Assembly (NCBI GenBank): GCA_021847245.1
Contig: JAJZUC010000002.1
Coordinates: forward strand, 1-64,000
DNA length: 64,000 bases
Direction: 5' to 3'
DNA from: Deltaproteobacteria bacterium
GTDB lineage: Bacteria; Desulfobacterota; Desulfuromonadia; Geobacterales; Geobacteraceae
The notes beneath the pieces are model-generated. The model ran no database searches. It saw nothing but the letters and a program-made list of their open reading frames with translations, and had not been told where the DNA came from. Of the stretch, positions 14,243 to 64,000 are shown piece by piece (within the stretch, counting starts at the first letter, position 1; each line of letters begins with the position of its first letter). The translations under genes and the position numbers were made by a program.

Positions 14243-14797
14243 ATGGAACTTCAGCGCCTGGAGACGAAGGAGAAGACGGGGCTCGTGGTCGTCATCACCG
14301 GCAACGGGAAGGGAAAGACCACGGCGGCGCTCGGGCTCTGCCTTCGGGCGGCGGGACACGGCCTCAGGGTCTGTCTCATCCAGTTCATGAAGGGTGATCT
14401 GTACGCGGGGGAGATCGACGGGCTCAAGCTCCTGCCGAACGTGGAGCACCATCTGACCGGCAAGGGATTCTGCGGCATCCGCGGAAACCCTTATCCGTTC
14501 CGGGAACACCGGGCCAACGCCCAGGATGCGATCGGGCTGGCCGGGGATAAAATAACTTCCGGGGCGTTCGACATCGTCATTCTCGACGAAATCAACAACG
14601 CCCTCAAGCTCAAACTCGTAGACCTATCCCAGGTTCTCAACCTCATCGCCACAAAGCCGCCCCTCATCCACCTCGTCCTGACCGGGCGGGACGCCCACCC
14701 CGACGTGATCCGGCGGGCCCATACGGTCACGGAGATGCAGGAGATCAAGCATGCCTTCCGGGAGGGGATCGAGCCGCAGAAGGGGATCGACTACTGA
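14243..14797 (+). CDS. cobO: Cob(I)yrinic acid a,c-diamide adenosyltransferase
   Basis: 184 residues, the CobO/BtuR family, which transfers adenosyl from ATP to cob(I)alamin. The P-loop variant GNGKGKTTAALGLCLRAAGHG lies near the N-terminus, followed by VCLIQFMKG, a FDIVILDEINNAL segment and HLVLTGRDAHP. The length is normal. Other B12 genes are not adjacent. A bidirectional terminator follows the stop codon. Confidence 0.93.
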   Translation: MELQRLETKEKTGLVVVITGNGKGKTTAALGLCLRAAGHGLRVCLIQFMKGDLYAGEIDGLKLLPNVEHHLTGKGFCGIRGNPYPFREHRANAQDAIGLAGDKITSGAFDIVILDEINNALKLKLVDLSQVLNLIATKPPLIHLVLTGRDAHPDVIRRAHTVTEMQEIKHAFREGIEPQKGIDY

Positions 14798-61356: not shown

Positions 61357-61722
61357 ATGGGGATGCTGAAGATATCACGGGCGGTCATTGCGGTTTCATT
61401 GGTCGTGGCGGCCGTGCAGGGGTGTGCCACTCTCGGCGTGCAACCCCGGAACAGGGCGGAGGTGGTGGTCAAGACCGGCGACACCGTCCGGCTGCTTCAC
61501 ATGGGGAGCAGGGAGGCGCAGGCTGATTTCTGTCTCGGCGAGATTGTACCGGTTTACCGGTGGTATGCCGGCGGCCGGTATGTGAAATACCGGGAAACCG
61601 GGAAGGTGAAGATTACCCGGTACGAGGGAGAGCATTACCTGGAAGCCCTCCTGCTGGAGGGGGATGTGAAGCTAGGGGATATTATCAGGAAAACCGGTGG
61701 GTGTCCCGCACCTCTGAAATGA
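61357..61722 (+). CDS. Small lipoprotein of unknown function
   Basis: 121 residues with a lipoprotein signal (RAVIAVSLVVAAVQGCATLG, lipobox VQGC). The mature part, EVVVKTGDTVRLLHMGSREAQADFCLGEIVPVYRW..., is not recognised. GAGGCGAGGGG precedes ATG 61357; the frame is open far upstream into gluQRS but that is a shadow. It lies 35 bases before the selenoprotein gene and could be in the same transcript. Confidence 0.8.
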   Translation: MGMLKISRAVIAVSLVVAAVQGCATLGVQPRNRAEVVVKTGDTVRLLHMGSREAQADFCLGEIVPVYRWYAGGRYVKYRETGKVKITRYEGEHYLEALLLEGDVKLGDIIRKTGGCPAPLK

Positions 61723-61757
61723 AAAGCCCATGAGCCATTGGGGAGGTAGAAAGGCAT

Positions 61758-62603
61758 ATGTCCCTTGCGCGGCTGAAAAACCGGCTCCTTGCCAGGGCCT
61801 TCACCGTTTTTCCTTCCCTCGCCGAACGCTGGGGTAGGGGGCTCGCGGCCGACCGCGGCGCGATCCCGTGGGACTCCCCCCGAAAGCCCCTGCGGGAGGC
61901 GACCCTCGCCCTGGTGACCACGGGGGGAGTCCACCTGAAAACCCAGCCCCCCTTCGATATGACCGACCCGAACGGCGACCCCTCCTTCCGGGAGCTCCCG
62001 GTGGATACTCCGCAGGCCTCCCTCGTCATCACCCACGTCTACTACGACCACCGGGATGCGGAAGAGGACCTGAACCTCATCTTCCCGGTCGAAAGGCTTC
62101 GGGAGCTGGTGGAGAGGGGTGCCCTGGGCGCCCTCAACCCCTTGGCCTTTGGTCTCATGGGGCATATCGATGGCCCCCATCTGGGGACCCTCCGGAAAGA
62201 GACCGCCCCGGCCATCGCCCGAAAGCTCGCCGATGCGAAGGTGGACTACGCCCTCCTGGTTCCCGCCTGAGGGAGCTGCAACCGGTCCGTGGGACTGGCG
62301 GCCCGGGCGGTGGAGGCGGTGGGAATACCCACCATCTCCCTCTCCATCGTCAGGGAGATCACCGAGAAGATCCCTCCTCCCCGCGCGCTCTATCTCCGCT
62401 TTCCCTTTGGGCATGCCCTCGGGGAGCCGGGGAACCGCGATCAGCAGTTGACCGTCCTCTACCTCGCGTTCCGCCTTCTCTTCGAGGCCGACCGGCCGGG
62501 GACGATCCGGAATGCCGGGCTGCGCTGGCGGCGCGAGACGTACCTTCCTCCCGACTGGGAGGCGTTCCGCCGCCTCGGTCCCGGTGCGCACGGCGCGCAA
62601 TAG
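61758..62603 (+). CDS. GrdB/PrdB-like selenoprotein (in-frame UGA read as selenocysteine)
   Basis: 281 residues if UGA 62268-62270 is selenocysteine (residue 171). The protein matches the glycine/betaine/sarcosine/D-proline reductase selenoprotein B family: VYYDHRDAEEDLNLIFPVERLRELVERGALGAL, then DYALLVPA-U-GSC-NRSVGLAARAVEAVGIPTISLSIVREITEKIPPPRALYLRFPFGHALGEPGN. The reading frame continues without shift on both sides of the UGA and both halves are conserved in the same family, with a UxxC redox motif. A SECIS-like hairpin follows at once. No grdA/C or proline reductase partner is nearby, so it is probably not part of a Stickland enzyme. Its substrate is unknown. Confidence 0.88.
62282..62298 (+). 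promoter_or_regulatory. Bacterial SECIS-like hairpin
   Basis: CCGGTCC (62282-62288) pairs with GGACTGG (62292-62298), seven pairs with one G-U, and a GUG apical loop, beginning 11 bases after the UGA. Position and GU-containing loop agree with bacterial SECIS elements read by SelB. Confidence 0.65.
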
Positions 62604-62626: not shown

Positions 62627-63196
62627 ATGACTCGAAAATGGCGCTGCGACAAATGCGGCTCAATTCATGAAGGTCCCGAACCGCCGGATCTCTGCCCGCA
62701 ATGCGGAGGGGACGGTTCCCGCTTCGTACCGGTAAGAGGTCGCGTATCCCGCTTTTGCAAGGACCTTTGCGACACCTTCGTCCTCCACGCCGTCGCCGCC
62801 CATTTCAGTAACGGCCTCCTCCCCGCTACCGTCCTGTTCCTCCTCCTCGCCCTCTTCAGCGGGGATCCCTATTTCGAGCGGACCGTCCTCCACCTGATCA
62901 TCCTTGCCCTCTGCGTGATGCCGGTCTCATTCTTCTCCGGCTTTCGCGACTGGCGCACGAAATTCGGCGGCGGCCACGCCCCGATCTTTTTCCGGAAGAT
63001 GTGGCTCTCGGGGCTCCTTTTTCTCCTCGAAGGAGGCGCCGCGGCTATCCGCCTCGCCTGTCCGGAAGTGCTCAACGATGGTGGGATCTTGAAGTGGCTT
63101 TACGCGGGGTGCCTCCTCGGCGCGCTGCCGGTGGTGGTTTTGCTCGGGCACTACGGAGGGAAGCTCGCGTTTCAGTGGAAGAGGGGGGCCAGGTAG
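62627..63196 (+). CDS. Rubredoxin-like domain membrane protein
   Basis: 189 residues. The N-terminus KWRCDKCGSIHEGPEPPDLCPQCGG has the CX2C...CX2C iron or zinc knuckle of rubredoxin/rubrerythrin tails. Four hydrophobic segments follow (LPATVLFLLLALFSG, LHLIILALCVMPVSF, WLSGLLFLLEGGAAAI, LLGALPVVVLLGHYGG), as in DUF2231 proteins. It may pass electrons at the membrane. ATG 62627 lies 23 bases after the selenoprotein stop; the pair is probably an operon and a redox partnership is an attractive guess. Confidence 0.82.
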   Translation: MTRKWRCDKCGSIHEGPEPPDLCPQCGGDGSRFVPVRGRVSRFCKDLCDTFVLHAVAAHFSNGLLPATVLFLLLALFSGDPYFERTVLHLIILALCVMPVSFFSGFRDWRTKFGGGHAPIFFRKMWLSGLLFLLEGGAAAIRLACPEVLNDGGILKWLYAGCLLGALPVVVLLGHYGGKLAFQWKRGAR

Positions 63197-63310: not shown

Positions 63311-64000
63311 ATGGAAAAGAAGACATCCGGCTACTTCGCCGAAAAGTTCGAAAAGCTCGCCTGGATCTACGACTGCGCCATCTCCTTTTGGACCTTCTTT
63401 CTCGGGGGGGAGAGAAGGGTCAGGGGAGAGGTGATCCGGCACGCCGGGATACGGGAGGGAGACAGGGTTCTCGATGTGGGGTGCGGCACGGGAACCGCCT
63501 CCTTCCTGATGGCGGAGCAGGCCGGACCGGAAGGGGAGGTGGTGGGGATCGATCTCGCAGAGAGGATGATCGCCATCGCCCGGAAAAAGCTGGCGAAATC
63601 TGGGCTCGGGAACATCTCGTTTCGCCAGGCGAATGCGGAGGATCTCCCTTTCCCCGACTCATCCTTCGACAGGGTCACCTTTTTTGCCGTCCTCCACGAG
63701 ATGAACCACGAAGGGCGGATCAACGCCCTGAAAGAGACCTGCCGGGTGCTGAGGCCCGGGGGGAGGGTGCTGATTAACGATCTGGATGCGCCGGAGAAAG
63801 GCCTCGGCCGGCTCCTCATGAAGCTCCTTTTGCTGGTGGAAGGGAAAACGGCCAGCGAGATGCTTCGGCGGGGACTTGACGCCGAGATAGGCGAGGCGGC
63901 CGGCGAGTGCCTGCGGGTCGTTCGGAAAAGGAAGATGCTTTCAGGGCTGGTGCAGGTTCTGGTGCTGGAGAACGTAGCAGAAAGCAGCTCTTTCATCGGT
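63311..64000 (+). CDS. Class I SAM-dependent methyltransferase (UbiE-like), 3' end beyond window
   Basis: 230 residues are visible and the frame is still open at base 64000. ATG 63311 follows AGGAAG. Motif I is VLDVGCGTGTASFLM, then GIDLAERMIAIARKKL, ANAEDLPFPDSSFDRV and LRPGGRVLINDLD, all typical of UbiE/Coq5-like enzymes. The substrate is unknown. Confidence 0.85.
   Translation, partial: MEKKTSGYFAEKFEKLAWIYDCAISFWTFFLGGERRVRGEVIRHAGIREGDRVLDVGCGTGTASFLMAEQAGPEGEVVGIDLAERMIAIARKKLAKSGLGNISFRQANAEDLPFPDSSFDRVTFFAVLHEMNHEGRINALKETCRVLRPGGRVLINDLDAPEKGLGRLLMKLLLLVEGKTASEMLRRGLDAEIGEAAGECLRVVRKRKMLSGLVQVLVLENVAESSSFIG

Follow-up and report, generated by a model that had tools for sequence, protein, structure and literature searches.

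A PrdB-like selenoprotein gene of a Geobacteraceae bacterium and the linkage of its subfamily to copper and silver export genes

Results

An open reading frame with a single in-frame UGA

The window analysed here is a stretch of 64,000 nucleotides (contig JAJZUC010000002.1, positions 1 to 64,000) from a bacterium of the Geobacteraceae. At 61758-62603 on the plus strand it carries an open reading frame interrupted by a single in-frame TGA at 62268-62270. Read through this codon, the frame encodes 281 residues and ends at the TAG at 62601-62603. Alignment with relatives assigns selenocysteine to the UGA (U171); 110 residues follow it, and the site reads U171-G-S-C174, a UxxC motif whose Cys174 (62277-62279) was assigned by conservation. 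A ribosome-binding site read from the sequence, GGGGAGG (61740-61746), lies 11 bases 5' of the ATG. The earlier note, made from the letters of the window, had described a UGA in frame between two halves joined by a U-G-S-C motif, and this is confirmed as described. Also supported is its view that the gene encodes a selenoprotein of the GrdB/PrdB superfamily, carries a UxxC motif and would usually be split by gene callers.

The two halves belong to one protein family, as the note had held. The part upstream of the TGA alone matches TIGR04483 (PrdB) with E 1.1e-29, the part downstream alone with E 5.2e-9, and the whole protein with E 1.5e-46. Orthologs from five genomes of the same family are 70-79% identical, and all five have the TGA. 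A survey of 395 genomes of the phylum, with a threshold of E 1e-20 or better, found homologs in 96, and nearly all full-length ones contain exactly one in-frame TGA. Every relative fetched has the TGA at the aligned position except one (L087, G409:C12), where GGA (Gly) replaces it. There the hairpin described below is intact and the locus is a copA-cytochrome c operon; the genome has SelA and SelD, and other species of the genus retain the TGA. We read this GGA as a recent mutation or a sequencing error. Between close orthologs dN/dS 3' of the TGA is ~0.07-0.18, below that of the 5' part in most pairs; the region after the UGA is under strong purifying selection. Homologues with an ordinary stop and an unconserved downstream half, which the note had named as evidence against its proposal, were not seen: the TGA is kept and the downstream half is conserved. 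Open frames of 400-500 codons enclose some of the more distant PrdB-like members (G170:C167, G155:C1, G305:C66, G434:C14 and others), which are possibly longer or fused proteins.

A covarying hairpin directly follows the UGA

A SECIS-like hairpin, identified by covariation, begins 11 bases past the UGA at 62282-62298 on the plus strand, with arms at 62282-62288 and 62292-62298 and the loop GUG at 62289-62291. Its position fits what is known of the bacterial SECIS in E. coli fdhF. In relatives the hairpin forms up to seven pairs, joining columns 15-21 with 25-31 (numbered from the U of the UGA) around a loop of three bases, GUN in most cases. Among 47 distinct sequences 96.4% of the cells are paired, compared with 82.7% after shuffling, and 40 cells have changed on both sides, compared with 11.1. 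The covariation score of the same set is 0.419, against 0.149 for shuffled alignments and 0.005-0.106 for slid registers. Pair 19-27 occurs as U-A, G-C, A-U, U-G and G-U. Since base 27 occupies the third position of a glycine codon, conservation of the protein does not account for these changes. RNAalifold recovers the same helix in relatives. Folding of the window hairpin as a single sequence did no better than shuffles, and the claim for the hairpin therefore rests on covariation. An Rfam scan of the region returned chance matches only and no SECIS family. Together, conservation and covariation argue that the UGA at 62268 is decoded as selenocysteine, aided by this hairpin, a putative SelB target, and 61758-62603 is almost certainly a selenoprotein gene.

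Selenocysteine machinery of the source genome

The note had also proposed a search for the sel genes. In the source assembly, which is 78% complete, the outcome was divided: SelB (contig C14) and SelD (C109, G000:C109:5712-6632) are present, the latter itself a selenoprotein with an in-frame TGA, and neither SelA nor a genuine tRNA-Sec (selC) was found. Matches to the tRNA-Sec model in this genome were rejected, being tRNA-Trp, Gly, Ser, Tyr and Phe. SelA is present in a genome of the same genus (G001) and in 5/5 carriers of the same family. SelA did not turn up near SelB in the source genome, nor SelB in the loci fetched around SelA of same-family genomes, so that an incomplete assembly can accommodate the lack of SelA. 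We infer that the absence of SelA and tRNA-Sec reflects assembly gaps.

The protein is PrdB-like but falls below the models of known reductases

The protein scores 158.8 bits on TIGR04483, where the cut-off is 300. GrdB-type models give 38-44 bits against cut-offs of 65-800; TIGR01918 stands at 43.2 bits against 65.45, and the 281 residues compare with ~430 for GrdB. The Pfam model GRDB (PF07355) is matched above its gathering cut-off (28 bits vs 22) over residues 36-168. A search against UGSC-type families, which the note had advised, gave 14.7 of 125 bits on NF041046 and 14.9 of 25 on PF24696, so that the likeness to these selenoproteins comes down to the letters U-G-S-C and a weak local match at the motif. 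TIGR04483 and the GrdB models are matched by 48/48 aligned members of the family. Judged by these profile scores, the protein is PrdB-like and is neither a true PrdB, a GrdB nor a UGSC-family protein. The superfamily named in the note thus stands, with the assignment refined to PrdB as the closest member, at about half of the required score (159/300 bits).

With D-proline reductase PrdB the protein shares family membership over residues 38-251 and a UxxC selenocysteine motif in the same place; it differs in its score, in having no PrdA-type partner seen alongside, and in belonging to a subfamily linked to copper genes with histidines of its own (98, 136 and 219). Compared with selenoprotein B (GrdB/GrdF/GrdH; TIGR01918, PF07355), it resembles the Pfam domain but has no N-terminal half (~200 residues) and remains under the NCBIfam cut-offs.

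Surveys count PrdB-type selenoproteins among the most frequent selenoproteins of bacteria. To our knowledge those outside clostridia have no known function, and their name implies proline breakdown. 'Proline reductase' selenoproteins have been reported for Geobacter uraniireducens and for Anaeromyxobacter (PMC1794560), and in ocean metagenomes PrdB is one of the major selenoproteins (PMC1088965, PMC2398784). These proteins, which were named by similarity, very probably belong to the same wider family. The selenoprotein class itself is thus not new, since surveys already name it in Geobacter, Anaeromyxobacter and the oceans. The accessible parts of the literature searched, these three papers included, describe no copper link for the PrdB-like family.

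Neighbouring genes in the window

Downstream on the plus strand, at 62627-63196, lies a gene with a rubredoxin-like domain (Pfam RUBY_RBDX, 40.2 bits) and a membrane part resembling DUF2231 below cut-off. Its ATG at 62627 follows the selenoprotein stop, which ends at 62603, as the note had recorded. The note had put this gene forward as a candidate electron donor. No homolog of it was found near the selenoprotein gene in any other locus tested, so we set the donor role aside; the gene is probably functionally untied to the selenoprotein. The note's description of a free-standing family member is borne out as regards the immediate neighbours.

Upstream, at 61357-61722 on the plus strand, is a small lipoprotein-like gene. 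Such genes recur at a distance of up to several kb from the selenoprotein gene; besides the window, they occur in two further genomes of the same family, at L002:12763-13032 and 14529-14783 and at L040:11490-11747. Further downstream, 63311-63997 encodes a SAM-dependent methyltransferase that resembles the CpaM, UbiE and ArsM types below their cut-offs.

Members of the subfamily are linked to copper and silver export genes

Among the loci of the first set, a CusA-type RND pump was the most widespread recurring neighbour (8 loci; TIGR00914, ~1180-1200 bits), and domains of the YHS, HMA, copper-oxidase and P-type ATPase kinds are found repeatedly as well. In the 37 genomes carrying the subfamily we counted CusA (TIGR00914) or CopA (TIGR01511) at distances up to 8 kb from the selenoprotein gene. 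One or the other was present in 14/37 genomes, including one (G277) counted on a CusA cut by the contig end, where 0.84 were expected (P ~2e-14). When genomes were collapsed to families, the linkage was found in 8/18 against 0.82 expected (P ~2e-7). For selD, which served as the control in these genomes, a copper gene was nearby in 2/38 (Fisher P 0.0006).

Because the copper genes had been noticed before they were counted, a second sample was drawn, comprising the 63 genomes of the class of G173, 40 of which carry the subfamily; its families overlap with those of the first sample. Among its informative loci (new loci with 1.4 kb or more of upstream sequence, n=28), copA lies directly upstream on the same strand in 15. 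The copA proteins are 44-74% identical to the query, which argues that the linkage is not one recent copy, though families are shared between the samples.

In several loci the arrangement is tight. In eight loci (L087, L148, L149, L151, L152, L155, L159, L160) a gene for a secreted cytochrome c with a single CxxCH lies between copA and the selenoprotein gene, and in L087, L152 and L155 the junctions of this copA-cytochrome c-selenoprotein series have overlapping stops and starts. In L090 and L130 copA lies ~20-30 bases 5' of the selenoprotein start; the L090 copA scores 630 bits on TIGR01511 (cut-off 397) and has YHS and HMA domains. In L040 a YHS-domain gene and the start of the selenoprotein gene share 4 bases. 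Most other neighbours vary between genomes. For over half of the subfamily no copper gene is in view, in some cases because the contig ends.

Comparative genomics shows that genes of this subfamily lie in or near Cu(I)/Ag(I) efflux loci, behind copA, often with a cytochrome c gene between, or beside cusAB. This link to Cu(I)/Ag(I) export genes is what is new here, and it had escaped the earlier note. For the window gene itself the link rests on its relatives, since CusA/CusB lie ~7 kb downstream on the opposite strand with other genes between. Past the window on the same contig, the region G000:C30:94974-119949 holds three more CusA-like RND pump genes, one of which (116938-119949) has an in-frame TGA.

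The linked genes fall within one clade with conserved histidines

A tree of 94 members places all 31 copper-linked rows in one 72-row clade, to which the window gene also belongs (SH-aLRT 92), and among the 22 rows outside it none is copper-linked in view. His98, His136, His219 and Asn175 are invariant or near-invariant within this clade and variable outside. His93, Sec171 and Cys174 are conserved family-wide, Cys174 being invariant in the subfamily and present in 21/22 of the other members. The structure, predicted with confidence (pLDDT 94.7, pTM 0.93), is an alpha/beta fold in which the Sec/Cys pair sits at the N-terminal end of helix 174-187, following strand 164-168. Searches of the PDB by sequence and by fold found no structure that is convincingly related (Foldseek E 0.03 and VIA Z 8.6 at best), the best fold matches being general Rossmann-like alpha/beta shapes only.

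Discussion

The reading we lean towards, with a probability of about 0.55, is that the gene encodes a cytoplasmic PrdB-like selenoprotein that serves copper homeostasis, a role suggested by genomic linkage. The Sec171/Cys174 pair together with the invariant histidines (93, 98, 136 and 219) would form a putative selenol/thiol redox or Cu(I)-binding site. The pair might reduce or repair thiols attacked by copper, with electrons from the general thiol system, or it might hand Cu(I)/Ag(I) to the exporter. Chances appear evenly balanced for the wider proposal that the whole subfamily is devoted to copper/silver homeostasis, as a selenol-based partner of the CopA/CusA exporters in the cytoplasm, with its genes in copA-cytochrome c-selenoprotein operons of many anaerobes. 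Such a subfamily would have stayed hidden because gene callers split the gene and databases label it proline reductase.

Three other explanations were weighed. An ordinary stop would leave a protein of 170 residues, with the frame behind it due to chance or decay, which is what the split of the gene callers would give and what the missing tRNA-Sec and SelA might suggest; yet the downstream part matches the family, the TGA is retained across the phylum at the aligned position and dN/dS is low, so that a pseudogene or an ordinary stop is practically excluded. The covarying hairpin, SelB and SelD in the genome and SelA in the sister genome speak against it as well. Only slightly less improbable is a true D-proline reductase subunit PrdB or a glycine/betaine/sarcosine reductase GrdB. 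TIGR04483 is indeed the best named match, but the scores on both kinds of model lie below their cut-offs, the protein is shorter than GrdB, and no PrdA/GrdA/GrdE-type partner was recognised among the recurring neighbours, which makes proline- or glycine-reductase action unlikely.

A PrdB/GrdB-type reductase of some small organic substrate other than proline or glycine deserves more weight, though we consider it doubtful on balance. Copper loci are often part of accessory regions in which unrelated genes gather, and the copper genes would here be passengers in such regions. The matches of all aligned members to TIGR04483 and the GrdB models agree with such an enzyme, as does UxxC, the motif of known reductive selenoenzymes, and no copper link is seen in the family's other clades. 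Against it, the copper linkage recurs in at least eight families with different exporters, and the lack of a PrdA/GrdA-type partner counts here too.

If the copper-homeostasis reading is right, a widespread and unexplained selenoprotein may help anaerobes against copper rather than in amino-acid breakdown, an unusual use of selenocysteine in their copper handling. The reproducible gene order with copA makes this a concrete role open to test, and it illustrates how split gene calls conceal operon partners such as the copA-linked selenoprotein.

Two further kinds of neighbour were named from the sequence by eye. TVP38/TMEM64-like membrane genes occur near other family members (L003, L004, L045, L104), and a mercuric-reductase-like flavoprotein is encoded near some (L003, L045, L089, L107), a possible mercury or redox context.
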